Shown in pieces: positions 1 to 24,016 of a DNA stretch of 24,016 nucleotides. Origin of the DNA: a virus. The position numbers and the translations under genes are program-made. Within the stretch, counting starts at the first letter, position 1; each line of letters starts with the position of its first letter. The notes under the pieces are model-generated. The model did no database searches. It was not told the DNA's origin and saw only the letters and a program-made list of their open reading frames with translations. The DNA lies in the IMG/VR virus record IMGVR_UViG_3300042868_013043, positions 1 through 24,016 of that record; one strand, 5' to 3'.

Positions 1-414
1 ATTGAAAATTTAGTTATTGAAACTGTAGATGGTGATGAAACGGTTGAAGATGCTGGTCAAACAGTTACTCTACACGTTAAATTGGAAACAATAAATCGAA
101 TATTAGATACGATTAAAGATGGCGGGCTAGCTAAAGAATCAATCGGAGAGACAAAAGTAACTTTTACTAAATCTGTTGCTGCATCCACTCCTGAGCAAGT
201 TGCACAAGAAATAGAAGAGCCTATTGAAAATATGCCAAATGAATCAGCAAATAAAGAAATATTAAGCTTTAATCAATTTATAAATGAGAAAAAAGGTGAT
301 TGGGTTGCTGATATGTTTAATGAGATTACTTCATTCGGTTCAATAAAGAAGACTCCGACTAAAACAAAAAAAGTGGCAAAAAAGCCAGTACATAATAAGA
401 GGGCTAAAAAATGA
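1..414 (+). CDS. Partial protein with internal FINE-type capsid-targeting-like motif
   Basis: The reading frame is open from the first base, so the true start lies upstream; an apparent TTG start at 82 is not needed. At least 137 residues are visible. The body has low complexity, with an acidic middle and a strongly basic Lys-rich end (about the last 25 residues). Bases 259-288 encode ILSFNQFINE followed by K, matching the motif repeated across this window and resembling the T4 capsid-targeting sequence cut by the gp21 protease after (L/I)-x-E. The stop overlaps the next start (ATGA at 411), so the two genes are probably translationally coupled. No enzymatic domain is recognised. By inference it is a virion or prohead-associated protein. 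Confidence 0.75.
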   Translation: MENLVIETVDGDETVEDAGQTVTLHVKLETINRILDTIKDGGLAKESIGETKVTFTKSVAASTPEQVAQEIEEPIENMPNESANKEILSFNQFINEKKGDWVADMFNEITSFGSIKKTPTKTKKVAKKPVHNKRAKK

Positions 415-1577
415 TAGAAGTAGCTTCAAAAAACGCGATTATTTCAATTCCTAAAAAAGGTTTTGGTCAAACTATGGTGAGCGTTCTGGTATTTTATCCA
501 GGAATACCAATTAAAGGTAAAATAGGAAGGGATTATATGCCACTGTTAATACGAAAGGCCGTACCTGATTGGTTTGATAAGTATGTAATCGTTATTCCAA
601 ATACTCACACTACTGATTGGAATATGGTTGAGACAGATTATAAAAAAGCAATGTCTGAATCTGGATTAAAACAAAGTGATTTAAGTATAGGATGTTTTTC
701 TGGATCTGGAAACTCTAATTCATCAATTCAAATGAATTTAAATCGGATTAAAGTAAATAATTTATTTTTAATGGACCCCGTTTCAACTGGATCAATTGTA
801 AAAAATACTGGACTTTTAAAATCAAGAGGAACCTCAATATATTTAATGTATAACCCAAATAATTGGAAATCTAAATATCCAATGGTCGCCGCTGGTTTTT
901 CTAATCTTGAACAGGTGGCTGGAGAGAATTCAATAAATACAATGTCTAAAACGTATGACCATGATAAGATACCTGGAAAATTATTAATTGAATGGAAAAG
1001 AGATATTGAGTCGTCTTTAATAAAATACAAAGAAATGACTGTTTCAAATATGGTAAATACAACATATTACGGGGATAGTAAAATTAAAGAAAATAATGGA
1101 GTTAATATGAAAATTAATGAATGTTCATGTGGATGTGGAGGAAGTTCAAATAACTGTACTGCGTCAAATCAGTCAGATGTAAACTATATGTTTTTTGGAA
1201 ACCTTGAAACAATAAAAAGAAACATTGAAGAATTATTATCAATGGACCAAGAAAGAGTTGACTCAATCTTAAAGAACGGTCATGAATGGGCAGTTGACCA
1301 TATTGCATCTTCAATGGATGATATCCAAGAAGTATATAATTTTTTAAAGAATGGAATATCTACTTCTGATCATAGAAAAAAGAATCCTTTTGCGGAAAGG
1401 GATATTTTTATAAAGACGTTTGAGAGTTATGTAAATGAGGCTAAGAAAACTTCTAAAAAGAAAAAGGATCACGACGGTGACGAAGATTTTGCAGATGCTA
1501 AAGTTGCTCAATATACAGCCGGCAGTATGCATAAAGGCCAAGCCATTGCCAAATCTCGTAAATTTAATAAAAAATAA
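411..1577 (+). CDS. Two-domain protein: alpha/beta-hydrolase-like N-terminus, Cys cluster, helical domain, motif-bearing basic tail
   Basis: 388 residues. Residues 1-215 read like an alpha/beta fold: strand-like VSVLVFYP, then YVIVIPN, a Ser/Gly-rich elbow GCFSGSGNSNSS, a strand ending LFLMDPVS, and later DHDKIPG, which could supply a late His. It is not a perfect GxSxG, so hydrolase is only a suggestion. A cysteine cluster follows (C238, C240, C242, C249), then a helical domain around residues 255-317 containing HEWAVDHIASS. Residues 334-343 are IKTFESYVNE followed by A, the motif seen in many neighbours, and the protein ends in a Lys/Arg-rich tail. The start overlaps the preceding stop (ATGA). 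An in-frame ATG at 1107, just before the Cys cluster and behind GGAG at 1098-1101, could start a shorter product. A terminator follows at once. Confidence 0.8.
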   Translation: MIEVASKNAIISIPKKGFGQTMVSVLVFYPGIPIKGKIGRDYMPLLIRKAVPDWFDKYVIVIPNTHTTDWNMVETDYKKAMSESGLKQSDLSIGCFSGSGNSNSSIQMNLNRIKVNNLFLMDPVSTGSIVKNTGLLKSRGTSIYLMYNPNNWKSKYPMVAAGFSNLEQVAGENSINTMSKTYDHDKIPGKLLIEWKRDIESSLIKYKEMTVSNMVNTTYYGDSKIKENNGVNMKINECSCGCGGSSNNCTASNQSDVNYMFFGNLETIKRNIEELLSMDQERVDSILKNGHEWAVDHIASSMDDIQEVYNFLKNGISTSDHRKKNPFAERDIFIKTFESYVNEAKKTSKKKKDHDGDEDFADAKVAQYTAGSMHKGQAIAKSRKFNKK

Positions 1578-1607
1578 AAAAAGCGACTCTCTGAGTCGCT
1601 TTTTTTA
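1576..1607. terminator. Bidirectional Rho-independent terminator
   Basis: A perfect 9-bp stem (1581-1589 with 1593-1601) closes a 3-base loop. It is flanked by a run of seven A on the left and seven T on the right, so it can stop transcripts from the + gene ending at 1577 and from the - gene ending at 1605. It lies between convergent genes. Confidence 0.9.
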
Positions 1608-1883
1608 TATAAGATCAAATTTTGTGCCTAGTCTATTTTCTAATTCTTCTAGAGAATATTTTTTAAATGCACTAGACAATAATTGTAACTTCTCATTTTT
1701 AATATAAGTACCATCTGTACTTTTAAAAGTTACATATTCATTGACTGGAAAGCTAACATTTCGCATAGCAGTCTTTATTATTTCAAGGTCGTCCTTATCT
1801 GCATAGTTTTCTATAAAATCAACTACACTACCTACCTTAATTTCTACATCGACTTCTGTCCATTGTATAAACCTACCTCCCAT
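1605..1883 (-). CDS. Small hypothetical phage protein (92 aa)
   Basis: 92 residues from ATG at 1883, one base after the stop of the gene upstream (TGA at 1887-1885), so it is very likely in one operon with 1885-2277 and 2287-2490. The sequence mixes beta and helical character with conserved-looking stretches such as VGSVVDFIENYADKDDLE and a helical C-terminus (LSSAFKKYSLEELENRLG). There is no signal peptide or membrane segment. The family is not recognised. It ends in the right arm of the shared terminator region. Early or middle small genes of unknown role are common in T4-type genomes. Confidence 0.75.
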   Translation of the reverse strand: MGGRFIQWTEVDVEIKVGSVVDFIENYADKDDLEIIKTAMRNVSFPVNEYVTFKSTDGTYIKNEKLQLLSSAFKKYSLEELENRLGTKFDLI

Positions 1884-1884
1884 A

Positions 1885-2277
1885 TCATTTGCTTTTAAAA
1901 ATTTCTAATAATTTACTTAAATGAGCAGTTGTCGAATCAGTAAACTGCTTTATTTTCAATTGGTATGCAAAAATATCCTTATTTGGAGGAGCAATATGCA
2001 TACGATCAATAATTGTTTTTACTTGTATGCTATTCGGTTTAACATATTCCCAAAAAATGTTTTCATGAGTCGGTGTCGCAAATATCCATTTACCATCAAA
2101 ATAAGTTGAGATATGGATAATTACTTTATTAGTAACGTCTTCAATGGAGACGTCAATTGAGGATCTATTTGTCCCACGATAATCAAAGCTTCTCTTAAAA
2201 AATAAGAACATTCCATCCTTTAATTCTATTGAATCCTCATAATACGAGTCTAATAACTCTTCGATTTTAGTCGCCAT
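1885..2277 (-). CDS. Hypothetical protein (130 aa)
   Basis: 130 residues from ATG at 2277. The leader CAATAAAAAATAAAT has no Shine-Dalgarno. The N-terminal part looks like a beta sheet (strands around GMFLFFKRSF, SIDVSIEDV, KVIIHISTYF, KWIFATP). The C-terminal third is helical (KQFTDSTTAHLSKLLEIF). No catalytic motif, signal or membrane segment is visible and the family is not recognised. It sits in the middle of a three-gene minus-strand operon (2490 to 1605) with gaps of only 9 and 1 bases. Length and complexity support a real gene; overlapping ORFs on the other strand are shadows. Confidence 0.75.
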   Translation of the reverse strand: MATKIEELLDSYYEDSIELKDGMFLFFKRSFDYRGTNRSSIDVSIEDVTNKVIIHISTYFDGKWIFATPTHENIFWEYVKPNSIQVKTIIDRMHIAPPNKDIFAYQLKIKQFTDSTTAHLSKLLEIFKSK

Positions 2278-2286
2278 ATTTATTTT

Positions 2287-2490
2287 TTATTGATTACGTT
2301 TCCACTTAAGCTCACTGCCTACCCATATTTCTATGACACGATTGTCTTTTTTCATTTTTGCTGAATATGCATCAACGTTTTTAACTTTATCATAGGAATA
2401 TTTTTTACCGTTTTCCATTACGACTGTTACAATAACTCCGCCTGGTTCAAGACTAAGTTCATTTTTTCTAAATGCGTCATTTACTAACAT
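2287..2490 (-). CDS. Small hypothetical protein (67 aa)
   Basis: 67 residues from ATG at 2490, the first gene of a three-gene minus-strand operon. It is a compact, lysine-rich beta-type sequence (GGVIVTVVMENGKKYSYDKV then VIEIWVGSELKWKR), perhaps an SH3-like or small binding fold, but no family is recognised. The 78-base gap to the divergent gene at 2569 must hold its promoter; no clear (G/A)ATAAATAA element faces it, so it may belong to a different expression class from the + genes. The leader is A/T-rich with no ribosome-binding site. Confidence 0.65.
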   Translation of the reverse strand: MLVNDAFRKNELSLEPGGVIVTVVMENGKKYSYDKVKNVDAYSAKMKKDNRVIEIWVGSELKWKRNQ

Positions 2491-2550: not shown

Positions 2551-2568
2551 CTAAAATAATAATACACA

Positions 2569-3249
2569 ATGCCAGGTAGAGTTTTAAATTTTTTAGAGTT
2601 TTCTGATAAATATTCAGGAGGCGAAGGCAATGAATTTAGTTTAGATGATATGAAGAATGCTTCTTCTAATTTTGAAGAAGGATTTGATGATGAAACATAT
2701 GACCTTCCAGAAATAGGAGCAAATAGACCAGTATCTGGTAGTGACATGGGAATGGCTACACCGGCTTCGCCAGGAGAAGAAGGTGCTCCTGATTTTTCAA
2801 CAGATTTATCACAAGGAATGAGTGCACCATCTGATGAGGAACCGATTGAAGGTGAAGAATCAATAGAAGATGAAGATGCTGCAACACAAGCAGTTTCAGA
2901 CTCAGGTGATGATGAGGACGAAGATGAAGAAGACGAATCAATTGAAGGAGAAGAAGAGGAAACTGATGATGAGGAAGAACTAGAAGAAGGTAATCCAGAA
3001 TCTGGAGCAAATCCTAAGAAAAAAGTAGACGAATCGATCACTTTGGTTAAAGGATTTAGCCAATTCATTAATGAAAATTATTTTGATGATGAATATTCAG
3101 AAGAGTATCCAGAAGATGAATATCCTGAAGATGAATATTCTGAGGATGAATATGGAATGTACCCTAACGATGAAGAAGAAGTATGTGATTCTTGTGGAGA
3201 AGCACCTCTTTCGAATGAATATGGATATTCTTGCGGATGTAATATGTAA
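2569..3249 (+). CDS. Acidic, low-complexity protein with FINE motif, Tyr/Asp/Glu repeats and C-terminal Cys cluster
   Basis: 226 residues, very rich in Asp/Glu. Near the N-terminus is VLNFLEFSDK (residues 5-14), a loose version of the window's recurring motif. A full copy, VKGFSQFINE followed by N, is at residues 160-169. After it comes a tandem EDEY(P/S) repeat and then a CxxC...CGC tail (C206, C209, C222, C224) that could bind a metal. Cleavage after FINE would release the acidic N-terminal 169 residues from a C-terminal peptide. Strong acidity recalls T4 prohead-core proteins such as gp67, but homology is not claimed. A candidate late promoter lies just upstream. The long serine-rich ORF on the opposite strand is a composition artefact. 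Confidence 0.8.
   Translation: MPGRVLNFLEFSDKYSGGEGNEFSLDDMKNASSNFEEGFDDETYDLPEIGANRPVSGSDMGMATPASPGEEGAPDFSTDLSQGMSAPSDEEPIEGEESIEDEDAATQAVSDSGDDEDEDEEDESIEGEEEETDDEEELEEGNPESGANPKKKVDESITLVKGFSQFINENYFDDEYSEEYPEDEYPEDEYSEDEYGMYPNDEEEVCDSCGEAPLSNEYGYSCGCNM
3088..3153 (+). repeat. Tandem coding repeat (GA[AG]GATGAATAT, 12-15 bp units)
   Basis: Imperfect units of 12-15 bases built on GAAGATGAATATYCT, encoding EDEYP / EDEYS / EDEYG after a first DEYSEEYP. The reading frame is kept. This kind of repeat can vary in copy number between relatives. Confidence 0.7.
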
Positions 3250-4200: not shown

Positions 4201-4638
4201 ATGCAAAAGACTTCTATTAAAAGATTATATGAAGCGGATGATATTCAACAGCCTGCTCCTTTAATGCAAGCACCAGTTGTTCAACAACCGCCACAAGCAA
4301 TGCCAACTGAGGCGCCGATTGCTGAGATTCCAAGCTTTGATCAATTTCAAAACCAAGAACAACCACAAGCGGCATTGCCTCAACCTGATGTTATGTCACT
4401 ATCTGTTCAAGAATTAATGGATCGATGTCAACAAGTAAACCCACTTATTTGCATGGGACTTCAACAGTTCATTGATGCAAATAAAGATCAAATATTATCA
4501 ATTCCATCTGGAGCAGAGAATCAAGAAGTATCTGATGAACCTGGAGAAGAAGATATTAATTTTTCAAAACAAATGGAACCACAAGCTCCTGAATTTTCAC
4601 TAGATAATCAAGAAGGTTTAGAATTTCCACAAGAATAA
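4201..4638 (+). CDS. Gln/Pro-rich protein with N-terminal RLYE motif
   Basis: 145 residues, rich in Gln, Pro and Ala, probably largely disordered. The N-terminus SIKRLYE (residues 5-11) followed by A matches the L-x-E pattern cut by T4-type gp21 prohead protease. A degenerate copy of the second motif, IPSFDQFQNQ, sits at residues 43-52 but lacks the final Glu. A more ordered stretch with two Cys (about residues 70-95: ELMDRCQQVNPLICMGLQQF) may be the folded core. The stop overlaps the next ATG (TAATG at 4636-4640), implying coupled translation. By inference it is a virion-packaged or prohead-core protein; no family is recognised. Confidence 0.75.
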   Translation: MQKTSIKRLYEADDIQQPAPLMQAPVVQQPPQAMPTEAPIAEIPSFDQFQNQEQPQAALPQPDVMSLSVQELMDRCQQVNPLICMGLQQFIDANKDQILSIPSGAENQEVSDEPGEEDINFSKQMEPQAPEFSLDNQEGLEFPQE

Positions 4639-4910
4639 TGAAACTAAAAAGATTATATGAGAGCATTGGGGAAACTTCTATTGAGTTAGATAATACTGAG
4701 AGGCTCCTTCAACCCGACGTTAAACGAGCAAATGCAATGTCGTTTTATGGAGGATCTGCTGGAACTGTGCCTGCTCATTGGAGTAATTCAACATTTCTTA
4801 GTGGAGGAAAATTAACTAGTACATTTGGAGCAAACCCAACAAATAAAAAGTTTAGGATCATGTCTTATCAAGAATTTATAGATGCCTCAAATAAATCTGG
4901 AGATAAATAA
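4638..4910 (+). CDS. Small protein with RLYE N-terminus and C-terminal FIDA motif
   Basis: 90 residues. It begins MKLKRLYES, nearly identical to the start of the preceding protein, and ends with IMSYQEFIDA (residues 74-83), a variant of the window-wide motif and very close to T4 MKTYQEFIAE in its core YQEFI. The middle is Gly/Ser/Thr-rich. The start is fixed by TAATG overlap with the gene upstream. The last codons (GGA GAT AAA TAA) themselves form the GATAAATAA element that may drive the next gene. The role is unknown; a virion-associated protein is the likely reading. Confidence 0.7.
   Translation: MKLKRLYESIGETSIELDNTERLLQPDVKRANAMSFYGGSAGTVPAHWSNSTFLSGGKLTSTFGANPTNKKFRIMSYQEFIDASNKSGDK
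4902..4910 (+). promoter_or_regulatory. Candidate late promoter, GATAAATAA, overlapping a stop codon
   Basis: GATAAATAA made of the last codons and stop of the gene ending at 4910, 15 bases before ATG 4926. Because Gly-Asp-Lys-stop produces this string by itself, chance is possible; the spacing fits the other sites. Confidence 0.4.
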
Positions 4911-4925: not shown

Positions 4926-5285
4926 ATGTCGTACGTTAAAAGTTTTAAGAGCTTTCAAAATGCTGAAAAGAAAGCAGCTGACGAAGTAAAGGCTGGGGCA
5001 AATCCTACTGTTGCTGAACAGGCAACTGCTACTCAACCAGCAACTCAACAAAATACTCAGAATCAGACGACTCAGCCAGCTCCAACTCAACCAGTAGTTG
5101 AGGCAGACCCTGAAGTACAGGCTGCTCGAAAAGCATTAGCTGACGCATCAGCTACTCGTGATAGAGTAGTCGCAGCTAAAAAGACTGAACTTGAAAGATT
5201 AATAGCTGATCAGGATGCAATAGTAAACCGATCAAATGTTAGTTTAAATACTGCTCTACAAAAAGCGGCTGCCCCTAAACCTTAA
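4926..5285 (+). CDS. Small Ala/Gln/Thr-rich protein with N-terminal targeting-like motif
   Basis: 119 residues from ATG at 4926, preferred over the TTG three bases earlier. The N-terminus VKSFKSFQNA followed by E (residues 4-13) has the spacing of the recurring motif but without the last Glu in place. The middle is a disordered Thr/Gln/Pro/Ala tract (TATQPATQQNTQNQTTQPAP). The C-terminal half is a charged amphipathic helix (AARKALADASATRDRVVAAKK), likely coiled coil. The stop TAA overlaps the next ATG (TAATG at 5283-5287). It is probably a head-associated or core protein, by position and motif only. Confidence 0.7.
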   Translation: MSYVKSFKSFQNAEKKAADEVKAGANPTVAEQATATQPATQQNTQNQTTQPAPTQPVVEADPEVQAARKALADASATRDRVVAAKKTELERLIADQDAIVNRSNVSLNTALQKAAAPKP

Positions 5286-5728
5286 TGGAACGAAATATAA
5301 AAACATATCAACAATTCATCAATGAATCAACTAAGGAAGTTGTATACCCTACTAATTTTACGGGTATGGTGCAAAGCGCACTTGGCGGACTATATACTTC
5401 GGTTATTGCAATAGCTAGAGAATTAGCAAACGAAAAAGCAGCTAGGAACCCCAGTAGATATAGCGGCGAGATACAAGAAGTTGACATAACTCGAGCAATG
5501 AATATGATTTTTCATAGTGATTGGAAAAAGAAAATGAAATCTCAAGCATTAGATCAAGTAATGAGACCATCTATCGAAAGAGCAGGAAAACAGGATGCCG
5601 TTGTTGCTAAAAAGAATCAACGTGCTATGGGAAGAATGATGGGAGATAAAGAGTTCAATGTAAATATCGATAAATCTAGTGTACGTTTTAGTGATAAAAA
5701 AGGAGGAGGAACTGGTTCAAATCAATAA
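5285..5728 (+). CDS. Virion-associated candidate with canonical capsid-targeting-like N-terminus
   Basis: 147 residues. The N-terminus IKTYQQFINE followed by S (residues 5-14) is the closest match in the window to the T4 internal-protein targeting sequence MKTYQEFIAE, where gp21 protease cuts after the Glu. The rest is helical and basic, with a hydrophobic helix around residues 28-50 (MVQSALGGLYTSVIAIAREL) and a Lys/Gly-rich end, reminiscent in charge of injected DNA-binding internal proteins. The start is fixed by a TAATG overlap. It is the last of four small motif-bearing genes before two probable structural genes. Confidence 0.75.
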   Translation: MERNIKTYQQFINESTKEVVYPTNFTGMVQSALGGLYTSVIAIARELANEKAARNPSRYSGEIQEVDITRAMNMIFHSDWKKKMKSQALDQVMRPSIERAGKQDAVVAKKNQRAMGRMMGDKEFNVNIDKSSVRFSDKKGGGTGSNQ

Positions 5729-7307: not shown

Positions 7308-9026
7308 TTATAATCCGCCTTCTCCTTTAGTTTCACCACCATCAATGGTTTCACTACCACCGCCTTCAGCTGGTGCTGCTTCTCCAGCTGGTGCGGCTGC
7401 TCCTCCAGCAGCAGGGGCACCACCAGCAGCAGGGGCTCCTCCAGCGCCAGCCGCTTCTTCAGCTTCATCAGCTTCTTGATCAAACCATTTCTTATTAGAT
7501 TCAATATCTGCTTCATTCATCTTAAGCTCTTCTCTAATTAAATACTCAGTAGCAAAGTATGGAGTTCCATCATCTTTCATTACTCCTTTCTTAGCTTGGA
7601 ATGATGCAATTCGTTTAGCTTCTATTTCATTTTTCTTCATCTCTTCAAAGACGTTGTCATTATTGTATTTTACACCAATAGCATTATTAAATTTATGGTC
7701 ATCTGCTAAATCTGGAAAATCCAAACACATTTGTAAATACCAAGGTTTAACAATAAGTTCAGAAAAAGCTGATCGTAAACGATTGACAAATTTTTGATAA
7801 CGTACCTCTTCCCTAGTTATACCCTCAGCGTTAAGAGTAAATGCTCCCATTCCAGATTGGCCTTCCCAACGTGAATATGGAATCTTAGAGTCCATTTTTA
7901 ATTTTTTATAAAAATAATTAAGCAATTCAGAACCAGAAAGATTTGGGCCAGGTGTTGCAAGAGGCTCTATTTTTACTTGCTGATTCTGGTCATTTATTGG
8001 AGTAACATAATTCTTATAAAATAAGATATTTGGTTTTCCATCTACTTGAAGCTCTCCAGTATCTCCATTAAAGTAAATGTCTTCTTTAAATAAGTTTAAA
8101 AATTCTCGAACATCTTCCTGCCCTTTTTGAAAACTTTTACTTCCGATCGGAACTGTTGTAGTTAAACGGATTGGCGCATTCATAACGTGCCAAATAACTT
8201 TACTGTGTTCGATTATTCTAAGTAAGTTGAATGATCTAATTAATCGCTCAACAAATGAGATTCTTTTTGTTCTAAAATGATTTGAATATGAAATATAAAT
8301 TACTTGAGAATCATTTAATACTCTAGTTGAGCCCGTAGCTTGATCATATTGTAACCATTGCATAAAGATCTTACCTTTATTGTCTTTTTGTAATTGAGGT
8401 GCAATACTCGCTGGGTCAAGCTCCTTAAATCCTATAATTTCCTTAGGCTTTTCTAAATCATCATATATGATCTCAAAACTAAGGTGTCCTTCAATTAAGA
8501 ATTGAAATGCATATTGCCATGCTGCGATTCCTTCTGCAAATCCCCAAGCAGTATACATTTTTTCAAAGTTATCATTATATTTCCTAACTACTTTTTCTTG
8601 AAAGTTTAAACGTTCTTCTTTAGTATCCCCACGATAAAGTATTTTACCAGTAAGATCCTTTGGGTATATAAATCGATTTTCGTCATCATATACAATCATA
8701 TCATCGACGATTGTTTCCAATACAAATTCAATTTCACCATTTGATGCAACGTCTCGTAATCGTTCTCTTTTTACAACATAATCTAATTGGAAAAAAGCAA
8801 GAGCCTTTGTTCTTAATTGAGACGTTGTATCTGAGATGGCCATTGAAAACTTCATCAAATCGTCATTCATAGTAGATCGACCGGCCCTAGCCTGAAGTTG
8901 ACTCTCGATAAAACCTATCGCTTGTGAGTTTTTAAGCAAAAGGTCCTCATGTCGAGTACCAAACTTACTTAGGTTAGAAAGAGCACTTCCTACTCTTGAA
9001 CCTGATGTATTTAAAAATCCTGCCAT
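7308..9026 (-). CDS. 20: Portal (head-tail connector) protein, gp20-like
   Basis: 572 residues, somewhat longer than T4 gp20 (524). The T4-type portal core is clear: VLETIVDDMIVYDDENRF (about 102-119), a region around LDPASIAPQ, then RISFVERLIRSFNLLRIIEHSKVIWHVMNAPIR, and GITREEVRYQKFVNRLRSAFSELI, corresponding to the T4 [24 protein letters not shown] region. The dodecameric portal sits at the unique vertex, nucleates prohead assembly and passes DNA. The C-terminal 50 residues are an Ala/Gly/Pro/Glu low-complexity tail with PAAGGA repeats not found in T4. The start (TAAAATG) directly follows the upstream gene's stop. A terminator follows. Confidence 0.93.
   Translation of the reverse strand: MAGFLNTSGSRVGSALSNLSKFGTRHEDLLLKNSQAIGFIESQLQARAGRSTMNDDLMKFSMAISDTTSQLRTKALAFFQLDYVVKRERLRDVASNGEIEFVLETIVDDMIVYDDENRFIYPKDLTGKILYRGDTKEERLNFQEKVVRKYNDNFEKMYTAWGFAEGIAAWQYAFQFLIEGHLSFEIIYDDLEKPKEIIGFKELDPASIAPQLQKDNKGKIFMQWLQYDQATGSTRVLNDSQVIYISYSNHFRTKRISFVERLIRSFNLLRIIEHSKVIWHVMNAPIRLTTTVPIGSKSFQKGQEDVREFLNLFKEDIYFNGDTGELQVDGKPNILFYKNYVTPINDQNQQVKIEPLATPGPNLSGSELLNYFYKKLKMDSKIPYSRWEGQSGMGAFTLNAEGITREEVRYQKFVNRLRSAFSELIVKPWYLQMCLDFPDLADDHKFNNAIGVKYNNDNVFEEMKKNEIEAKRIASFQAKKGVMKDDGTPYFATEYLIREELKMNEADIESNKKWFDQEADEAEEAAGAGGAPAAGGAPAAGGAAAPAGEAAPAEGGGSETIDGGETKGEGGL
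7363..7446 (-). repeat. GC-richer coding repeat in portal tail (18-bp units)
   Basis: Two adjacent 18-base units (7405-7422 and 7423-7440) share CCAGCAGCAGGGGC, flanked by diverged copies. They encode PAAGGA repeats. The local G+C is much higher than the surrounding sequence, which suggests recent repeat expansion. Confidence 0.7.
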
Positions 9027-10175: not shown

Positions 10176-10481
10176 TTAGCTTAAATATTTTTCAAGAAAT
10201 CTATTTGCATCTTCTGATGATATTTTACCTTCTTCTACTAATTTAACAAATAATGCAGCAAGTGCAAGGTTTTCAGGAACGTCTTCATCAGTAACGTCGA
10301 CTTCTCCCTTTTGTGCAGCGTCTTCAAGATCAGCATATGCAGCAGCCGCAGCTGATTCAATCTCTTCTTCCGATCCTACTAATTCAACTAATTCATCAAG
10401 TAGAGATTCATCCATTTCAAATGGCATTCCCTCTTCCATCTCATTTAATCTATATTCTTCCAACGATAATATTCTTCTCAT
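10176..10481 (-). CDS. Small acidic protein with targeting-like N-terminus
   Basis: 101 residues. The N-terminus ILSLEEYRLNE (residues 4-14) fits the window-wide pattern and ends with L-N-E, a T4 gp21-type cleavage site. The remainder is strongly acidic, with an Ala run (IESAAAAAYADLEDAAQ) and a helical C-terminus (NLALAALFVKLVEEGKISSEDANRFLEKYL). Small, very acidic head proteins cut by the prohead protease include T4 gp67 and gp68, so a prohead-core role is plausible, without sequence proof. It is followed by the gp4-like and portal genes and preceded by a candidate late promoter that overlaps the primase stop. Confidence 0.72.
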   Translation of the reverse strand: MRRILSLEEYRLNEMEEGMPFEMDESLLDELVELVGSEEEIESAAAAAYADLEDAAQKGEVDVTDEDVPENLALAALFVKLVEEGKISSEDANRFLEKYLS

Positions 10482-13803: not shown

Positions 13804-14568
13804 ATGGCTAGAAAAACAAGTAAATTAGGAAAAGATGCAATTGAGGATCTTGAAAATTGGGAAAGAGATCGTGAGATCCTTGAAAATACTAAAGTATTTA
13901 AGACTGGCATCGATATTAAATGCAAATCCAAAGCGCAAAAGGATGCATTAAACGCTATTGAAAACCACGATATTTCTATTGTAACTGGTCCTCCAGGAAC
14001 AGGTAAGACCTATCTTTCTTGTGCAAGAGCTCTAAAATACATAAAGGATGATCCTGGAACATATCGAAAGATTGTTTTAATAAAATCAGTTAATGTTCCT
14101 AAAGATGAGGAGATAGGTTATCTAAAAGGTACGATGGAAGAGAAGATGGAAATGTACATGTATCCATTCATCTCAAACTTCCATAAAGTAATAGGTAAAC
14201 CTGCAACCGAGGCGCTAAAAGCAAATGGCACAATTGAGATTTTACCAATCAAGTTTGCATTAGGGGTAACATTAGATGAATCGATTATATTAATTGATGA
14301 AGCTCAACAAATAGGTAAAGACCATCTACATACATTAATGACTAGAATAGGTACAAATTCTAAGATGGTATTCTTAGGAGATATAAAACAAAAATCAGTA
14401 AACAAAGGTCAAAAGAGTGCATTAGAAGTTTTAATTGATTATTTTGGAGAAATAGAAGAGATTGGAATAGCTCAATTGACAAAAGATGATATCGTTAGAC
14501 ACCCTATTATTAAGAAGCTAGAAGAGATATTTGAAAAAATTGAAAATGCAGAGAAATTAAATAAATAA
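13804..14568 (+). CDS. phoH: PhoH-like P-loop ATPase
   Basis: 254 residues from ATG 13804; the TTG at 13798 is less likely because it overlaps the previous stop. Walker A GPPGTGKT is at 62-69, Walker B IILIDEAQ at 161-168, then MVFLGDIKQKS (sensor) and a final NAEKLNK. The stretch KSVNVPKDEEIGYLKGTMEEKME is typical of PhoH. PhoH proteins are ATPases related to superfamily 1 helicases, common in large and marine phages; the cellular role in phage is unsettled, with RNA or nucleotide metabolism proposed. It is the middle gene of a three-gene operon, overlapping the next start by one base (TAATG). Confidence 0.92.
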   Translation: MARKTSKLGKDAIEDLENWERDREILENTKVFKTGIDIKCKSKAQKDALNAIENHDISIVTGPPGTGKTYLSCARALKYIKDDPGTYRKIVLIKSVNVPKDEEIGYLKGTMEEKMEMYMYPFISNFHKVIGKPATEALKANGTIEILPIKFALGVTLDESIILIDEAQQIGKDHLHTLMTRIGTNSKMVFLGDIKQKSVNKGQKSALEVLIDYFGEIEEIGIAQLTKDDIVRHPIIKKLEEIFEKIENAEKLNK

Positions 14569-14999
14569 TGAATATGCTAAAGGACTTTAATGATTTCATA
14601 AATGAAAATTTATCAATTGATTTAGAATCAATGGGAAGTGACTTAAGATTTGCAAATACTGCAAGTAAAAATACAATGAATATTAAAAAGAACACGAATT
14701 ATCTAAAAAACGGTCGAGCTATAAATAGCGTAGTTACTGTGACTACTCAAGGAAAACAATATAATTATCAAGTATACATAATGGGAAAACCATTTAACTT
14801 AAAATCGTTGGAGCCTACTGCAAATGATTCAGTTAAAATCACATATTATACAGGTGAAATGGCTAAGTCAAACTCTAAGAAATATGAAACTAAAACAGTT
14901 GTAAAATCACTAGATATGCTTAAAGATTATGTTGACGACTTGAAAAAAGGAGTAAATATTGATCCTCTACTTGTCCCATTCAAATTAATTAGAGTATAA
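14568..14999 (+). CDS. Targeting-motif protein downstream of phoH
   Basis: 143 residues. The N-terminus LKDFNDFINE followed by N (residues 4-13) is a clean copy of the recurring motif and ends in I-N-E. The rest is a beta-rich domain (INSVVTVTTQGKQYNYQVYIMG, VKITYYTGEM) with a C-terminal helix and a short tail. No family is recognised. The first ATG, coupled to phoH by TAATG, is chosen; a second ATG is two codons later at 14574. The gene is followed at once by a terminator. By the motif it should be packaged into the prohead, even though its operon partner PhoH is an intracellular enzyme. Confidence 0.75.
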   Translation: MNMLKDFNDFINENLSIDLESMGSDLRFANTASKNTMNIKKNTNYLKNGRAINSVVTVTTQGKQYNYQVYIMGKPFNLKSLEPTANDSVKITYYTGEMAKSNSKKYETKTVVKSLDMLKDYVDDLKKGVNIDPLLVPFKLIRV

Positions 15000-17013: not shown

Positions 17014-17508
17014 TTACCTAGTAAAGTCAACGAATTTATAGTAAGTTGATGCAATTTTAAAATGTTCGTCATTTTCCATCTCAGTTGGATTGTTTGATGA
17101 TATTACTTCATTACCTACTGGTGATGAACTTCCATCACCAGAATAGAAATCAGCATATTCTTCACCCTGCTTACCTAAGATTAATGATTTGATTTTAAAT
17201 TTCTCAAATATTTGTGGTATATTATCTTTAAATTCAGTGTCATCGTTAAGCACTATGAAGATCGATGGATACTCTTTAAGTTCTTCATCATGGCTCATGT
17301 ATGCAGACTGTTTGATATAGTCATATTCTTTAAAGTAGGTAGTTAGCGCAGATTGCTGAGACTCACTATTTTTAAAAACGATAATTGTGAAAGGAATTTT
17401 AGTTTGAATTGCATCCCTAACTTCAGACCAAGTATGACTAGTTTCTGAAGTCTGAGCCTTAATTTCTTGAGTATAATCTTCGTATAATCGTATGTGTTTT
17501 AGAGCCAC
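17014..17508 (-). CDS. RLYE-type protein with alpha/beta body (164 aa)
   Basis: 164 residues from GTG at 17508. No earlier start exists after the stop, and the resulting N-terminus MALKHIRLYEDY matches the RLYE starts at 4201 and 4638. Residues 22-115 look like an alternating alpha/beta fold (PFTIIVFKNS, YPSIFIVLNDD, IKSLILGKQG), possibly Rossmann- or thioredoxin-like, without a recognisable catalytic motif. The C-terminal part is Ser/Gly/Asn-rich. A 9-bp inverted repeat (17118-17141) lies within the gene. A minus-strand GATAAATAA sits 18 bases before the start. Motif and promoter both point to a late, possibly packaged protein. It leads the three-gene block that ends with uvsW. Confidence 0.75.
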   Translation of the reverse strand: MALKHIRLYEDYTQEIKAQTSETSHTWSEVRDAIQTKIPFTIIVFKNSESQQSALTTYFKEYDYIKQSAYMSHDEELKEYPSIFIVLNDDTEFKDNIPQIFEKFKIKSLILGKQGEEYADFYSGDGSSSPVGNEVISSNNPTEMENDEHFKIASTYYKFVDFTR

Positions 17509-18139: not shown

Positions 18140-18140
18140 T

Positions 18141-18772: not shown

Positions 18773-19336
18773 ATGGCATCTAAATATACACTAAACTATT
18801 TACAGTATATTAATGAATCTGAGGACGCTAGTCCATTAAAAGGATATCCGGCAGGACAGATAATAAGTCGAATTGAAGAGCTTATGGAAGTAATATCTGA
18901 TAAAATACGATTTGGAGTACCATCTGACAACTTAGGAAGAGCAACTACTTATAGAGATGCAAATGGGGCTATACAAAGAATTAAAGATATTTTACATTAT
19001 TATAATAGTAAAAATGAAAAGGTTAGATTTTATTGCTGGTCAGTAAGTTATGCTGGAAGCTGGAAAGCTACCAAAACTCTTAAAGATAAGATAAATTCAG
19101 CTGGAGGATTTGGTGAATCTTCAACTGAAGATAGCACTTCATTAAACATAAACTTGAAAAAATTAATTGATTACTTTACTGAAAACCCAGAAGATTCTGA
19201 TAATTTACAAAGTATATCAATTAGTATTGATTCTCCAAGTATTAGAAAAGCAATGTCTGCACCAGATAAAGATTTAGAAATGACTGATGAACCTCAGCAG
19301 ACTGAACAAAAACCAGAAGCGTCAACTGAAGAATAA
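18773..19336 (+). CDS. Targeting-motif protein (187 aa)
   Basis: 187 residues. The N-terminus TLNYLQYINE followed by S (residues 6-15) is a clear copy of the recurring motif ending in I-N-E. The body is helical at first (GQIISRIEELMEVISDKI), then beta-like (EKVRFYCWSVSYAGSW), and ends in an acidic, Gln/Glu/Pro-rich disordered tail. No family is recognised. It sits between the kinase and the ligase-NMNAT fusion; the 16-base gap to the latter suggests they are co-expressed. If the motif is cut, mature protein would start at Ser16. Confidence 0.75.
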   Translation: MASKYTLNYLQYINESEDASPLKGYPAGQIISRIEELMEVISDKIRFGVPSDNLGRATTYRDANGAIQRIKDILHYYNSKNEKVRFYCWSVSYAGSWKATKTLKDKINSAGGFGESSTEDSTSLNINLKKLIDYFTENPEDSDNLQSISISIDSPSIRKAMSAPDKDLEMTDEPQQTEQKPEASTEE

Positions 19337-19352: not shown

Positions 19353-21221
19353 ATGGCAGGAATAAACAATTTACGTGAAGTCTATGAAAAAAAGGGTGAA
19401 TCATTCTTAACTGGACTTCTAAATAACTATGTCATAATCAACGAAAAAGTTGATGGTGCATTCTTTGGTGTAAAAAAGACACAAGAAGACACATTTAAAT
19501 ATTTTAAGAAATCTGGCGAAATTACATATGTTGATCAGGTTTTAATGAAATATTATAATCCAGCATTGACTCACTTTAATAATATGCCTGAAGAAAAAAG
19601 GCAACGTATTCCTGCGGATTTTTTCTTTGGCTTTGAATATTTTACTAGAGGAGACTCTAAGTCAGTAAAAAGAAGCGAACTTCCTAAAAACGGACTAATT
19701 CTTTCATACATACAACGGCTAGACGCGAGCGGTAAACCCACTGAAACTCTACAATCAAAGGAGGAACTTACTAGATGGGCAAACTATTTAGATGTTGAAG
19801 CTCCGCCGATTATATTTGAGGGCAAGTTAGATGATGAACAAAAGAGTAAAATCTTGGAATTTGTATATACTGAGTCATCAAACCTTGAAGAAAAATTTAA
19901 GACTACTTCTTTTACTAAATATATTATTTCAATACTTTGCCCAGAAGATAAAACAGAAGATATAACAAATTCTGAGTTAGATACTATTATTTTTAGGTTT
20001 TATGGAGGAGACAATAGCGAAGCATTTTTAGCAAAACTAGTAGATCCGATATTTCAACAAAGGACTAGTGAAAACAAACCAAAAGTAAATTCATCACAAG
20101 ATTATATTTGGTTAATCGTAATTGACTTAATGAATCATTTTGAAATGTATGACATTGATCAATTACGAGAGATGATAGATGAAGATGGTACATTTGAAGA
20201 AAAATATATTGATTTAATCAATAAAATATTTAAAGACTTTTTAAAAGACTATTTTGTAAAATACGACGGTCTTGCACTTGAGGTACCTGAATATTTAAAA
20301 CGTCCAGAATTTGAATTAGACTTAAATTTAGTTAGAGATCCTGAAACAGTTGACCTTATTGGAAAGAATGAAACAAATACTGAAATCTATAAGATATTAC
20401 TTAACTTCTTTAGAAAAGTAAGAAAAAAGTCTAGTGCAGGATTCTTTACCCCTGATATGGTATCGCAATTAAATTTAATTGTAAGTAAGATTAAGAACAT
20501 AATAATGGGTGATGCGGTATATGAAGGTCTTTTTCCAAGTTTTAGCCAATTTATAGGATCTCCTAGCGATTATTTTGCATTAAGCGAAGTTGAATATGCA
20601 AAGAAAGCAGAAGAGATTAAGGACCCAGTAAAAGTTAATATATTAATTGGTTCATTTCAACCTGTAACGCTAGGCCATATTAAAGCAGCGGAAGCTCTTA
20701 AAAAGAAAAATGGAAACAAGACAGTTTTTGTTGCAATTAAAGGCGAAGGCCAATCTAAAAAGTCACCATTTACGTTAGCAACAACTAAAGTAATGCTAAA
20801 TAAAGTTCAACAGGAATATTCAACCTTAATAGAAGGAATTAGGATTATCCCTAGTGGGCAGTTGGCTGAAATTATTAAGTCATTACGTCCAGACTATGAA
20901 CCTATCTTATGGGGAACAACTGATAGGCGAATGAAGGATTACGCAATTCAAATGGATTACATTAAAAAGAGAGATGTGCCTTTAAGAATATCAAAGGATT
21001 TTAAATTAGTTGAATTACCAAGTTTTGTTAAATCAGAAGAAATAATTGATTTAATTAAAGGTTCTGAGTTTGAACAGTTTAAGAAAATGGTTCCTGAAAC
21101 AATCGTATCTGAATTTTTCAATTTACAAAAGGAGGTTGGAAAAATAGGATCAGTTAAGGAGTCGTTATCTGATTCTAGATTAATTGAAACTGATCTAGAT
21201 AAGAGAGACGATATTATATAA
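19353..21221 (+). CDS. Fusion: ligase-like nucleotidyltransferase + NMN-adenylyltransferase-like domain
   Basis: 622 residues. The N-terminal domain has IINEKVDGAFFGVK with K32-V-D-G35, the KxDG motif I of ATP/NAD-dependent DNA and RNA ligases where the Lys is adenylated; FGFEYF (92-97) resembles motif III and KLVDPIF later may be motif V, while motif IV is weak. Residues 433-442, GSFQPVTLGH, are the HxGH-type signature of nucleotidylyltransferases such as NMNAT and cytidylyltransferases, followed by VFVAIKGEGQSKKSPFTLA. The linker holds LFPSFSQFIGS (393-403), a variant of the window's recurring motif without the last Glu. It might join or repair nucleic acid and handle NAD or another nucleotide cofactor. 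Co-occurrence in one chain is unusual; exact substrates are not deducible. Confidence 0.82.
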   Translation: MAGINNLREVYEKKGESFLTGLLNNYVIINEKVDGAFFGVKKTQEDTFKYFKKSGEITYVDQVLMKYYNPALTHFNNMPEEKRQRIPADFFFGFEYFTRGDSKSVKRSELPKNGLILSYIQRLDASGKPTETLQSKEELTRWANYLDVEAPPIIFEGKLDDEQKSKILEFVYTESSNLEEKFKTTSFTKYIISILCPEDKTEDITNSELDTIIFRFYGGDNSEAFLAKLVDPIFQQRTSENKPKVNSSQDYIWLIVIDLMNHFEMYDIDQLREMIDEDGTFEEKYIDLINKIFKDFLKDYFVKYDGLALEVPEYLKRPEFELDLNLVRDPETVDLIGKNETNTEIYKILLNFFRKVRKKSSAGFFTPDMVSQLNLIVSKIKNIIMGDAVYEGLFPSFSQFIGSPSDYFALSEVEYAKKAEEIKDPVKVNILIGSFQPVTLGHIKAAEALKKKNGNKTVFVAIKGEGQSKKSPFTLATTKVMLNKVQQEYSTLIEGIRIIPSGQLAEIIKSLRPDYEPILWGTTDRRMKDYAIQMDYIKKRDVPLRISKDFKLVELPSFVKSEEIIDLIKGSEFEQFKKMVPETIVSEFFNLQKEVGKIGSVKESLSDSRLIETDLDKRDDII

Positions 21222-21267: not shown

Positions 21268-22827
21268 ATGAGGTTTAATGAATTGGACGAAACCGACAAA
21301 ATCCTAATAAGCGAGACTTATAATAATAAAGAACTTTCATGGGACTATCGAATCAGCTCGCTAGCTGAAAGATTTGAATGTTCAAACCGCACAATCGAAA
21401 ACTGGATATCTAAATTAGGACTAACTAGCAAAACGCTAGAAGAGTCTCCGCAATTTAAGATTGCACAGGCAAAGGAGTATAATAAAAAATCAAAGCGATT
21501 TATTATTACTTGGGCTCAAAACAACACTCCTATTCATAAAAACTTTCTAGAAAATATCAAGTCATATGCGGATTTCATTAATGCTGAGATCCATGTGATA
21601 GCTGGAAGATATAGAAATCCAACGAGTATTTGGACTGCAAATCAAGAGAATGAAGATACTTGGGCAGAGGAGGTACTAGGATATCTTGACGCAAATCGAC
21701 ATGACATTCATAAATATGTTTCTATAATGTCAGATGTTAAGATACAACCAACTGCGGTAAATCCAATGACTGGCTTAGAAGGGCTTAGTGGAATTAATTC
21801 ATGTATATTCGGATCGCCAAAGGTTCAATTAGAAACAATACCAGTATTGGAAGGAAATGCTCCAAAAATGATGGTAACTACTGGTGCATGCACAGTAAAA
21901 AATTATACTGATTCAAAATCTGGTAAAAAGGGAGAGTTTCATCATACTTTAGGCTTTACGATTGTTGAAATTAAAAATTCAGAAATCTTCTTTATGAGAA
22001 ACGTAACAGCTACTGATGATGGAGAATTCACAGACCTTTTTTATAGAGTTATAGATGGAGAAGTAAGCCGAATTGAAAGAGTATCTGCGATAGTTTGGGG
22101 AGATCTCCACTATGGTTGTCATGATAAAAAAGTATTTAATAAGACTCTTGAATTGATGGAGGATATCCGACCTGATCATGTTATTTTACACGATGTGTTT
22201 GATGGAAAATCAATAAGCCATCATGAAGAAAAGGATCCTTTCTTACAATATCAAAAGGAACTTGATGGAACTAATTCATTAAAGAGAGAAATAGATGATC
22301 TTTTAAATGGACTTGATGAATTTAAAGAATATAATACAGTTATTGTTAGGAGTAATCATGATGATTTTATTGACAGATGGTTAAAAAATACTGATTGGAG
22401 AAAAACAGTTACTCCAAAAAACTCATTAGAATACATGCAGTTTTCTTCTGCTATCCTAAGTGGTGATGCACCAAATGGAATTATTCCATGGGTGATAAAT
22501 AATAAATATCCACACTTTATAACGTTAGGAAGAAGCGATAGCTATATTGTTAATGGGTGGGAACTAGGCCAACATGGAGATATCGGTTCAAATGGAAGTA
22601 GGGGATCTATTCAACAATTTAGAAAGCTTAATCGCAAGATTGTTGTTGGACATTATCACTCACCAGGAAGAAAAGATGGAGCACTAGCAGTAGGTACTTC
22701 CACATCATTAAGAGTAGGTTATAACATAGGAGCTAGTGCATGGTTGCAATCGCATGTAATAATACATGAAGATTCTAAAGCGCAACATATTAACTTTATA
22801 AATGGTGAGTATACTACTTTAAAATAA
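21268..22827 (+). CDS. HTH-fused calcineurin-like metallophosphoesterase
   Basis: 519 residues. An N-terminal helix-turn-helix (about 24-52, ISSLAERFECSNRTIENWIS) is followed by a central beta-rich domain. The C-terminal phosphoesterase has the metal-binding set: WGDLHYG (D279, H281), HDVFDG (D309, D312), RSNHDD (N363, H364), GQHGD (H436) and GHYH (H462, H464). Enzymes of this fold include nucleases such as Mre11/SbcD and phosphodiesterases. Fusion to a DNA-binding HTH suggests a nucleic-acid substrate. A similar role has been discussed for the T5 A1 protein, also a large phage metallophosphatase; I suspect but cannot show homology. The leader CTTATACTTAAT has no Shine-Dalgarno. Confidence 0.85.
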   Translation: MRFNELDETDKILISETYNNKELSWDYRISSLAERFECSNRTIENWISKLGLTSKTLEESPQFKIAQAKEYNKKSKRFIITWAQNNTPIHKNFLENIKSYADFINAEIHVIAGRYRNPTSIWTANQENEDTWAEEVLGYLDANRHDIHKYVSIMSDVKIQPTAVNPMTGLEGLSGINSCIFGSPKVQLETIPVLEGNAPKMMVTTGACTVKNYTDSKSGKKGEFHHTLGFTIVEIKNSEIFFMRNVTATDDGEFTDLFYRVIDGEVSRIERVSAIVWGDLHYGCHDKKVFNKTLELMEDIRPDHVILHDVFDGKSISHHEEKDPFLQYQKELDGTNSLKREIDDLLNGLDEFKEYNTVIVRSNHDDFIDRWLKNTDWRKTVTPKNSLEYMQFSSAILSGDAPNGIIPWVINNKYPHFITLGRSDSYIVNGWELGQHGDIGSNGSRGSIQQFRKLNRKIVVGHYHSPGRKDGALAVGTSTSLRVGYNIGASAWLQSHVIIHEDSKAQHINFINGEYTTLK

Positions 22828-22836
22828 TCTAATGAT

Positions 22837-23028
22837 GTGTCAAAGAAGAACAATAGTCAACAAAACTTTGAGGACTACCGGAAAGGTAAAGCTAAACTAG
22901 AAAATGCTGTGCTTCAGCATCCAGAAGAGAGTAAAGGCGGAAAGTCAGTATATGACTTTATGAAAGGTGAGGTTCAACGCAATATATGGGTGATTCCATA
23001 TGAGCAATTTAAAAAGAGAGATAAATAA
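22837..23028 (+). CDS. Small hypothetical protein (63 aa), GTG start
   Basis: 63 residues from GTG at 22837; the two ATGs just before it (22832, 22835) are in other frames and quickly reach a stop. Sequence is Lys/Glu-rich with QNFEDYRKGKAKLENAV and SVYDFMKGEV, ending IPYEQFKKRDK. No family is recognised. Nine bases separate it from the metallophosphoesterase stop. Its last codons and stop (GAT AAA TAA) lie within the GATAAATAA element before the following gene, as at 4902, so the gene end is shared with a possible promoter. Moderate confidence because it is short and uses GTG. Confidence 0.6.
   Translation: MSKKNNSQQNFEDYRKGKAKLENAVLQHPEESKGGKSVYDFMKGEVQRNIWVIPYEQFKKRDK
23020..23028 (+). 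promoter_or_regulatory. Candidate late promoter, GATAAATAA
   Basis: GATAAATAACTAAAAT, 19 bases before ATG 23048. The stretch GATAAATAACTAAAAT is also found at 2542-2557, giving a 16-base match between two promoters. Confidence 0.5.
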
Positions 23029-23047
23029 CTAAAATCAATCACCTTAC

Positions 23048-24016
23048 ATGAGCTTTGAAGCATACTTAAAACAGTGGATGGGAAATTATAAACCCATTAA
23101 TGAGGCAAAGAAGCAGGATCCTGAACAATTCAATGAATTGAGAAGCATAATTGACTCTGGAATAGGCGGGGATACTAAAGATCCTGTCGCTAGAACTACT
23201 TCAATTGGCTCAATTGATAAGATCTTGGACTCATTAGACACATCAGCTTTACAAAAAGTAAAGTCAAATTCAGAATTACAAAAAATACTTCTTTATTTAG
23301 TATCTCCTGGAAAAGTTGAGTGGTTGGGTGAATACTTAAATCGCTCAAAGAAAAATATTAGTGCACTAGGGTCAAATAAAAGAAAAATTAATTCAGTTAA
23401 TAATTTTAGTGATTTTGCAAAGATTACAGTTAAAGAAGCAGAAATTAAGGCAAACATTTATAAAATGTATTTGATTTTTAAATATGCTGAATCAATTCCG
23501 GATATCGATGCTGAAACTAATATTCTTTCATATTTAAAAAATGAAGGTATTGAATTACTTTCTTCTACTGAGGAAGGAGCACCTAAATATAAAATTGGAA
23601 AGATTGGTCTTATTGATAACTCAGTTGCAAGTAATGAATTTGAGGTAATTAATGATGCTGGCGAATCCAAAGTTATTTTAAAAGAAGAGTTAAAGAATTT
23701 ACTTGAAATTAACCCTGAAATCGCCGAAAAGGCAAAGGTAGTGAGTTCAGAAGGATATAGAAAAAGAATCGACAAGCTTTCAAGTAGAATCGAGGAAACT
23801 ATTAAAAAGGATGTAGCTAAATCGATTGATTATAACAGAGAAGTAATTTCTGAACTTCCTAATACTGAAGATACTATGGAGAGACTTCAAGTAGATTGGA
23901 AGCCATTGATTGATGCATTAGGATATGCTAAATTCTATGAGAAACCAATCAAAGAAAAGGAGCAGAAGATCACAGTTACTGAAAAACCAAGTTTAAGAAA
24001 AAAGAATAGAATTCGT
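23048..24016 (+). CDS. Motif-bearing protein, 3' end beyond the window
   Basis: The frame is open from ATG 23048 to the last base (323 codons), so the C-terminus is missing. The N-terminus MSFEAYLKQWMGNYKPINE (1-19) followed by A is a longer form of the recurring peptide: SFEAYL as the aromatic part and I-N-E at the end as a possible protease site. The rest is mostly helical and charged, with a small beta-rich stretch (GAPKYKIGKIGLIDNSV, NEFEVINDAGESKVILKEE) and a helical segment RKRIDKLSSRIEETIKK. No enzyme motif is seen. A candidate late promoter lies 19 bases before the ATG. It is probably a virion or prohead protein. Confidence 0.8.
   Translation, partial: MSFEAYLKQWMGNYKPINEAKKQDPEQFNELRSIIDSGIGGDTKDPVARTTSIGSIDKILDSLDTSALQKVKSNSELQKILLYLVSPGKVEWLGEYLNRSKKNISALGSNKRKINSVNNFSDFAKITVKEAEIKANIYKMYLIFKYAESIPDIDAETNILSYLKNEGIELLSSTEEGAPKYKIGKIGLIDNSVASNEFEVINDAGESKVILKEELKNLLEINPEIAEKAKVVSSEGYRKRIDKLSSRIEETIKKDVAKSIDYNREVISELPNTEDTMERLQVDWKPLIDALGYAKFYEKPIKEKEQKITVTEKPSLRKKNRIR

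Follow-up and report, generated by a model that had tools for sequence, protein, structure and literature searches.

A peptide resembling the T4 capsid targeting sequence on many otherwise unrelated proteins of a huge-phage fragment and its relatives, and its likeness to a scaffold repeat

We analysed a stretch of viral DNA of 24,016 bases (IMG/VR record IMGVR_UViG_3300042868_013043, hereafter the window), which is the entire virus record available for its genome, and a short aromatic peptide, here called the tag, that recurs on several of its 34 genes (g01 to g34). The portal gene, of the T4 gp20 type (7308..9026, minus strand), served to find relatives. It was matched by 1,912 phage records, every one at less than 60% identity, and the best matches were the uncultured huge phages LR756500 (462 kb, 38%), LR756504 (636 kb, 34%) and LR756501 (735 kb, 33%), hereafter W01, W03 and W04, followed in the ranking by Lak phages and Tenacibaculum phage PTm1. 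Portal relatives were also encoded at 38 loci of viral contigs, mostly at 78-91% identity; the long relatives used were G001 (176 kb), G002 (208 kb), G003 (128 kb), G004 (125 kb), G005 (71 kb) and G007 (66 kb), in which, as in W01, open reading frames (ORFs) were called by a simple longest-first rule. By its portal relatives, therefore, the window is a 24-kb fragment of a huge phage of the T4 type.

Ten peptides of the window had been described as one family in an earlier note on this DNA, and all ten translate exactly at the coordinates and on the strands given there. Eight copies are clear, all on the plus strand. Four of them form a short N-terminal peptide of about ten residues: VKSFKSFQNA in g11 (4935..4964; ORF 4923 or 4926-5285), IKTYQQFINE in g12 (5297..5326; ORF 5285-5728), LKDFNDFINE in g24 (14577..14606; ORF 14568-14999) and TLNYLQYINE in g30 (18788..18817; ORF 18773-19336). 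Three are internal, namely ILSFNQFINE in g01 (259..288; ORF 1-414, open at the left edge of the window), IKTFESYVNE in g02 (1410..1439; ORF 411-1577) and VKGFSQFINE in g06 (3046..3075; ORF 2569-3249), and one, IMSYQEFIDA in g10 (4857..4886; ORF 4638-4910), is C-terminal. The remaining two are atypical N-terminal forms, ILSLEEYRLNE in g19 (10440..10472, minus strand; ORF 10176-10481) and MSFEAYL...PINE in g34 (23048..23104, plus strand; ORF 23048 to the window end). The description of all ten as one motif thus holds for the seven that conform to the strict pattern [FY]xx[FY][IV][ND][EA] (g01, g02, g06, g10, g12, g24 and g30), and more loosely for g11, g19 and g34.

The strict pattern was found nine times, in 9 of the 34 genes (7,752 residues), compared with 0.14 times on average and at most twice in 2,000 shuffles, and the narrower [FY]xx[FY]INE was found five times when 0.02 was expected from shuffles; the motif is therefore far more frequent than in shuffled proteins, one of the comparisons by which the earlier note would have had its claim refuted. 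The other two strict matches, YADFINA in g32, inside a conserved protein that looks like a metallophosphatase by eye, and FAKYIDE in g29, a single copy in mid-protein, are probably incidental and were rejected as tags. Core codons differ synonymously among the eight copies compared, and the signal therefore resides in the protein. The carriers had been said to share nothing else, and PHROGs indeed gave the ten of them no common family (best expectation value, E, 0.03); Pfam at E 0.001 returned nothing for g02 and g06, the two window carriers scanned.

Alignment of orthologues showed that the g12 tag is kept in all 15 relatives aligned (of 18), and also in G005, there with a GTG start, and the g06 tag in 5/5 (as FISE in G007), while four relatives have YIKE or YLKE in g30. 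The C-terminus of g10 reads SY[QRE]EF[IV] in the five orthologues listed, none of which has Glu at position 10; the g11 peptide is conserved in 4/4 listed, again without Glu at position 10 and with Glu at position 11 instead. The atypical forms are also retained, E-Y-[KR]-[LIV]-N-E by 4/5 orthologues of g19 and MSFEAYL by 2/2 orthologues of g34.

We then scored other genomes with a profile whose training set was 31 strict tags at N-termini, drawn from the window, G001, G003, G004, G005 and G007. It was applied to residues 1-26 with the cut-off fixed at 8, and W01, W03, W04, T4, PTm1, Lak-B5, PAU and G002 were held out; it replaced an earlier profile because that one had been trained on the genomes that it scored. 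The number of ORFs over the cut-off was 20 of 705 in W01 (shuffled 1.36), 23 of 952 in W03 (shuffled 1.96) and 51 of 1,060 in W04 (shuffled 1.70), a genome that had been forecast to be tag-rich from its scaffold. The claim of more carriers than the handful of T4 was thus borne out: three held-out huge genomes hold 20 to 51 N-terminal tags each, and five training contigs 5 to 13 each. When the profile was moved to residues 41-66, it matched 2 of 825 ORFs in W04 and 0-2 per genome in the genomes scored before W04. T4 gave 3 of 276 ORFs (shuffled 0.42), which are ipII, ipIII and gene 61.1 and no other; ipI, which starts MKTFKEFTST, was missed. There was no match among 323 ORFs of PTm1 and 296 of PAU, one among 988 of Lak-B5 (two of 661 when TAG is read through as a codon), and three among 229 of G002, of which one is convincing. 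In eight genomes, with protease-scaffolds excluded, 89 of the 114 matches to [FY]xx[FY][ILV]NE begin by residue 15, when 8.5 were expected. Of 145 tags, 89% have Glu at position 10 and 90% have an I, L or V at position 8, letters that the selecting profile itself favours.

These 145 carriers, deprived of their first 20 residues, fell into 111 BLAST families (51 into 42 in W04, 23 into 21 in W03, 20 into 17 in W01, and 51 into 28 in the window together with G001, G003, G004, G005 and G007). A looser union of criteria gave 68 tagged proteins in W04. Pfam was run on 60 carriers, mostly longer ones, of the 179 listed (111 + 68): 11 passed the curated cut-off, several barely, and 49 had no match. 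The domains found were NUDIX, CHAP, LRR, DUF2201 metallopeptidase/VWA, PNK3P phosphatase, PPK2, nucleotidyltransferase, zinc ribbon (L37ae), DUF7919, methyltransferase and UPF0227. Confinement of the tags to variable genes was considered and rejected, since 4-10% of genes are tagged at every conservation level. Three tagged products are candidate delivered enzymes, namely a DUF2201 metallopeptidase/VWA pair (L091:318-1793), a polynucleotide 3'-phosphatase (L096:17088-17720) and a polyphosphate kinase 2 (L220:12222-13436).

The peptide resembles the capsid targeting sequence of the T4 internal proteins IPI-IPIII (Mullaney and Black 1996, as cited in PMC9026906 and PMC3012670). T-even internal proteins are described as diverse defence proteins, conserved only in the targeting sequence that leads them into the scaffolding core (Rao and Black, PMC3012670), and those of T4 as countering host defences at the start of infection (PMC9391042). 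In the targeting peptide of IPIII, residues 4 and 7 are reported to serve targeting and residues 8 and 10 processing, and Asp at position 10 blocks cutting while targeting is kept (PMC9026906). IPII and IPIII start MKTYQEFIAE in the T4 record, and the same arrangement, F/Y at positions 4 and 7, I/V at 8 and E at 10, is found in g01, g02, g06, g12, g24 and g30. The likeness to the T4 internal proteins thus comprises a ten-residue N-terminal peptide with aromatics at 4 and 7, I/L at 8 and Glu at 10, placed before otherwise unrelated proteins; the differences are the internal and C-terminal copies and the enzyme domains of carriers here. By the T4 rules, g10 and g11 are predicted to be targeted and docked but left uncut, because the aromatic pair is kept and Glu at position 10 is absent. 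The T4 major capsid protein gp23 carries FGSFLTE, which ends at residue 65, and its propeptide is 65 residues long (PMC5694885). Many head proteins of SPN3US and phiKZ are likewise cut after Glu by the prohead protease (PMC5694885, PMC9026906), but their propeptides are mostly far longer than the capsid targeting sequence, the site in phiKZ is S/A-x-E, and no short shared tag is described in the available text of those papers. T4 gene 61.1 (54 residues, hypothetical; L120, NC_000866 18966-19130, minus strand) starts with MKTFKEFIKE, and its score is similar to those of IPII and IPIII; it is a candidate for a further internal protein of T4.

A gp21-like protease, which the earlier note had proposed to look for elsewhere in the genome, was found in relatives and not in the 24-kb window. 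Pfam recognised Peptidase_S77 (PF03420) in 6 of 8 relative records (G006 duplicates part of G001) and in 6 of 6 further records including T4, four of these over the cut-off, and PF03420 was silent in 14 control genomes; searches for G002-like and PTm1-like proteases returned the query contigs only. The protease profile matched T4 gp21 (PDB 5jbl) at E 5.8e-6. In the relatives, PTm1 and Lak-B5 the protease is part of a fusion of about 580-810 residues, with 632-807 in the fusions that were read, while those of PAU and T4 (gp21, 212 residues) are short, separate proteins. The motifs D80-H81-P82 and S136-S137-R138-A139 are invariant in six of six aligned fusions, which were chosen by Pfam and not by these sites, and we take their His and Ser to be catalytic; at 89 of the 96 loci the protease ORF was selected by the letters DHP and SSR, so that invariance in the derived 42-row alignment is no test. 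The fusion model (mean predicted local distance difference test, pLDDT, 62.9; predicted template modelling score 0.29) has a protease domain at pLDDT 63-84 and one continuous helix at residues 289-443 (pLDDT 50-69) that bears tandem 14-residue repeats; Foldseek matched the model to 5jbl at E 2e-9 (template modelling score 0.70 by target). The protease thus shares with T4 gp21 its sequence family, fold, His and Ser sites and, in W01, the gene position between the portal and major capsid genes, and differs from it by the fused, repeat-bearing scaffold helix. PTm1 has the same fusion, named 'prohead core scaffolding protein and protease' in its record, but without aromatic 14-residue repeats and with no tag over the cut-off. 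The last [ILMV]xE within the first 110 residues of the major capsid protein lies at residues 43-58 in 42 of 42 sequences, those of 41 of the 43 loci, where a candidate was found, plus W01. We also noted by eye a gene for a J-domain (DnaJ-like) protein directly upstream of the protease-scaffold gene of G001 (L049:14455-15462; G001 54455-55462).

The scaffold repeats share a core with the tag. Their 484 copies in 43 scaffolds, with 388 of 441 successive distances of exactly 14, have the consensus K-N-I-x-Y-S-E-Y-L-A-E-N-L-D, that of the tag is I-K-x-[FY]-x-Q-F-[ILV]-N-E-[AS], and both contain aromatic-x-x-aromatic-[ILV]-x-E. In five of six repeat-bearing genomes no other protein has as many copies of this core as the scaffold (8 vs 1, 8 vs 2, 7 vs 1, 11 vs 3 and 14 vs 7), and in W01 the scaffold ties at 2; each of 48 scaffold clusters (89 protease ORFs) has 6-16 core matches. 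A second motif-rich protein of W04, membrane-bound and resembling a tape measure, was taken as a coincidence. The flanks of the 44 scaffold clusters with enough ORFs held 21 profile matches in 852 ORFs.

Tags and repeats also occurred together when they were sought at the level of DNA, with a pattern (a start codon and then the tag) that is independent of gene calls, leaves the frame unchecked and takes in a few internal tags. Sixteen records of repeat lineages (4.24 Mb), among which G003, a contig without the protease, was placed by kinship, gave 130 matches with 123 distinct end points, where the reversed control gave 7. Five repeat-less records (G002, Lak-B5, PTm1, PAU and T4; 1.36 Mb) gave 2, and the control 3; the pattern requires N-E, so that the I-A-E tags of T4 are missed. 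The same five genomes have at most three profile matches each.

Orthologues of g01 and g02 in different phages have in common everything up to and including the tag, and differ after it. What follows the tag falls into four families in g01 (counted with loci on duplicate contigs noted) and three in g02 (the window; G001, G003 and L037; G004). The tail of g02 in the window (1440..1574, plus strand), a putative exchangeable cargo part, stands in G007 as a gene of its own with an N-terminal tag (69% over 36 residues, E 4e-10), and the g02 tail of G001 and G003 likewise has a tagged gene to itself in G004 (39-41% over 153-162 residues, E 3e-35 and 8e-38). In g06, insertions of differing length lie between the tag and the conserved C-terminal end. 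The slot between PhoH and UvsW, where g24 lies, holds nine genes across five of six phages, seven of them tagged and in six families, and is empty in G007. Such an exchangeable slot and such tails are what a cassette system predicts. The proposal that internal copies could be domain-separating cut sites fits the g01 and g02 junctions, but not g06 and another family, where the end is mostly shared.

We consider it probable, on these comparisons, that the peptide is a head-targeting and processing signal like that of T4, used on a much larger scale. The earlier note had read it as a head-packaging and protease-processing signal, and the shuffles, the protease of the relatives, the many carriers and the g01 and g02 junctions argue for that reading. 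A tag of this kind is already known from T-even phages; its scale, the scaffold match and the swappable junctions are what is new here. Our literature search, which mostly did not extend to subscription papers, found neither tags of this sort reported from huge T4-type phages nor a scaffold repeat that shares the tag core.

It is from the motif, its position, the protease, the scaffold repeats, their co-occurrence with tags and the domain swaps that we infer docking, packaging, cutting and delivery. The prohead would be assembled on the protease-scaffold fusion, with about 4-16 repeats of 14 residues (Y-S-E-Y-[LIV]-A-E) in tandem along its long helix. A cargo protein would have a single copy of the shared core, in most cases at the N-terminal end, and would dock with it as an extra repeat on the helical core, and the shell would close round core and cargo. 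The gp21-type protease would then cleave after [ILV]-x-E in the scaffold, the cargo tags and the major capsid protein, by which the scaffold would be chopped and the cargo freed within the head, to be delivered to the host together with the DNA. Internal copies would be cut sites at the joint between a carrier protein and a swappable cargo domain, while the Glu-less copies of g10 and g11 would dock and remain uncut. That the peptide works by copying a scaffold repeat has, in our estimate, an even chance of being right, the odds having been lowered to this level because T4 has the tag without such repeats. We would put about equal weight for and against W04-like phages carrying some 50 or more packaged proteins. 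The broadest form of the proposal we hold tentatively, at slightly short of even odds: it is a code readable from the genome, in which a mimic of the scaffold unit would load up to some 50-70 unrelated proteins, among them enzymes, into the head to be delivered along with the DNA, while tag and scaffold would change together between lineages (FxxFINE here, MKT[IL]xxL[YF]E in PAU, LYES and ESLFDD in Lak), and internal copies would be swappable cassettes.

Several findings weigh against this reading or narrow it. In the window, the peptides of g10 and g11 are missing the Glu that cutting would require, and those of g19 and g34 have an atypical form; the g12 model, which is of low confidence, places the tag within a domain helix, and there is no protease gene. 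The part after the tag is mostly shared in g06 (23 of 23 members) and in another internal-tag family (12 of 14), so that not all internal copies can be read as junctions. Tag and repeat share only the seven-residue core, the upstream hydrophobic residue being at -2 in the repeat and at -3 in the tag. The scaffold of W01 has only four core matches, and G010 (13 repeats) and G011 (8 repeats) gave one DNA match each. T4 has the tag, yet its scaffold gp22 is without such an aromatic repeat, and the repeat-mimic step is therefore not needed in T4. The contrast between lineages rests on few without repeats (G002, PTm1, Lak, PAU and T4), and among the best 40 of 1,485 related-protease records those covering the repeats are all from uncultured phages.

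The alternative closest to a head-targeting and processing signal is that the peptide docks proteins to the head or core and is no cut site, the carriers being permanent structural parts of the virion. The aromatic pair without Glu in g10 and g11, conserved in the listed orthologues, and the persistence of the g12 tag in its aligned relatives would suit it, but Glu at position 10 and an aliphatic residue at position 8, as the protease requires, each predominate among the 145 profile-selected tags, the relatives own the protease, and the parts after the tag in g01 and g02 are exchangeable; we regard docking without cutting as unlikely. An N-terminal address for another site in the cell, such as the host membrane, a host protein or the phage factory, is less probable still: the 49 scanned carriers without a Pfam match would leave room for it, while the core is the same as that of the scaffold repeats, of T4 IPII and IPIII and of FGSFLTE in gp23, and tags co-occur with repeat scaffolds.

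The carriers might instead be remnants of a single gene family that has expanded, or of gene shuffling at a DNA end that is conserved, with a peptide that is inherited and functionless. Small paralogous groups do exist (seven in W01), but the 145 carriers make up 111 families whose Pfam domains, where any is known, are unrelated, the core codons vary synonymously, and the tag stays in the aligned g12 orthologues while the contents of the slot turn over; this origin seems to us very improbable. Chance or composition has the least credit of all. AT-rich genomes abound in codons for F, Y, I, N and E, and in W01 the raw DNA pattern, when no start codon was required, gave 6 matches against 5 for the control; the shuffles, internal controls and reversed-pattern controls nevertheless refute chance for the set, while the single weak matches in g29 and g32 may be due to it.

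The T4 targeting peptide has long been used for loading foreign proteins, and the reviews, in their available text, are silent on its partner on the core; the scaffold match offers, for the present phages, a direct and testable answer to what the tag recognises there. With the tag one could also list, from the genome, the proteins that an uncultured huge phage probably introduces into its host at the very start of infection, and huge-phage genes of no assigned role would become a ranked list of candidate injected proteins.

Other N-terminal words were sought by de novo motif fishing, which gave 17 members even in PTm1, G002 and T4; only PAU (30) and Lak (24) were therefore considered further. 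In the cultured phage PAU (NC_019521), MKT[IL]xxL[YF]E starts 15 proteins, 12 of them encoded at 100-121 kb and most near head genes. In Lak-B5 (MK250024), KKxLYESIMKSVSK...LNE and MNKxIKxL[VM]ESLFDD are dispersed on several proteins, and our literature search found, among the papers listed, nothing relevant on Lak virion proteomics. The words of both phages end in a possible [ILMV]-x-E site. N-terminal sequencing of the PAU capsid protein gave a mature length of 520 of 585 residues (PMC5646251); an L-M-E site predicts 521 residues and a calculated mass of 56.1 kDa, compared with 56.2 kDa published, while the published length, taken literally, would place the cut after Asn and not at [LI]xE. 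A second N-terminal form, [ILVMF]x[LIM][FYW]E, is present on 20 proteins of W03 (1 at residues 41-60) and 12 of W04 (3). In the window, possible second-type tags were noted by eye in g09 (..KRLYE|AD, 4201..4242, plus strand; ORF 4201-4638; KRLYEAD in 4/5 orthologues) and at the start of g10 (MKLKRLYE|S, 4638..4670, plus strand; relatives mostly RLVEG), and g27 (ORF 17014-17508) begins with MALKHIRLYE|DYTQE (17464..17508, minus strand), [IV]KL[YF]ED being found in 4/4 listed orthologues.

Some carriers and neighbours drew attention for other reasons. The weak, all-helical model of g12 (pLDDT 59.9) found mostly histone folds as its best PDB matches (Foldseek E 0.22) and superposed on archaeal HMfA/HMfB at 2.7 Å over 62 residues (Z 5.6-5.8), with an additional C-terminal helix; its structural rows, at Z 5.4-6.1, are below the level that the tool calls safe; Pfam assigned it to no histone family, and a sequence search of the PDB found no match. 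'Phage histones' with a C-terminal helix beyond the histone fold have been described (PMC11390915), and g12 is possibly a packaged histone-like protein. The g02 product has an extra N-terminal domain of 232 residues (411..1106, plus strand), the orthologues of five relatives starting at residue 233; on this domain Pfam was silent, and a GCFSGSG seen by eye suggests a hydrolase. The g31 product (19353-21221) has a cytidylyltransferase-like domain, over the cut-off, behind a weak RNA-ligase-like match below it. Its conserved linker reads FPSF[SG][EQ]F[IV]G, and the copy in the window, FPSFSQFIG, was rejected as a tag for want of Glu, though it is conserved between the two enzyme domains. In G001 the g10 orthologue is fused behind a domain that resembles, by eye, the N-terminus of cyanophycin synthetase (L048:5454-6191; G001 25454-26191).

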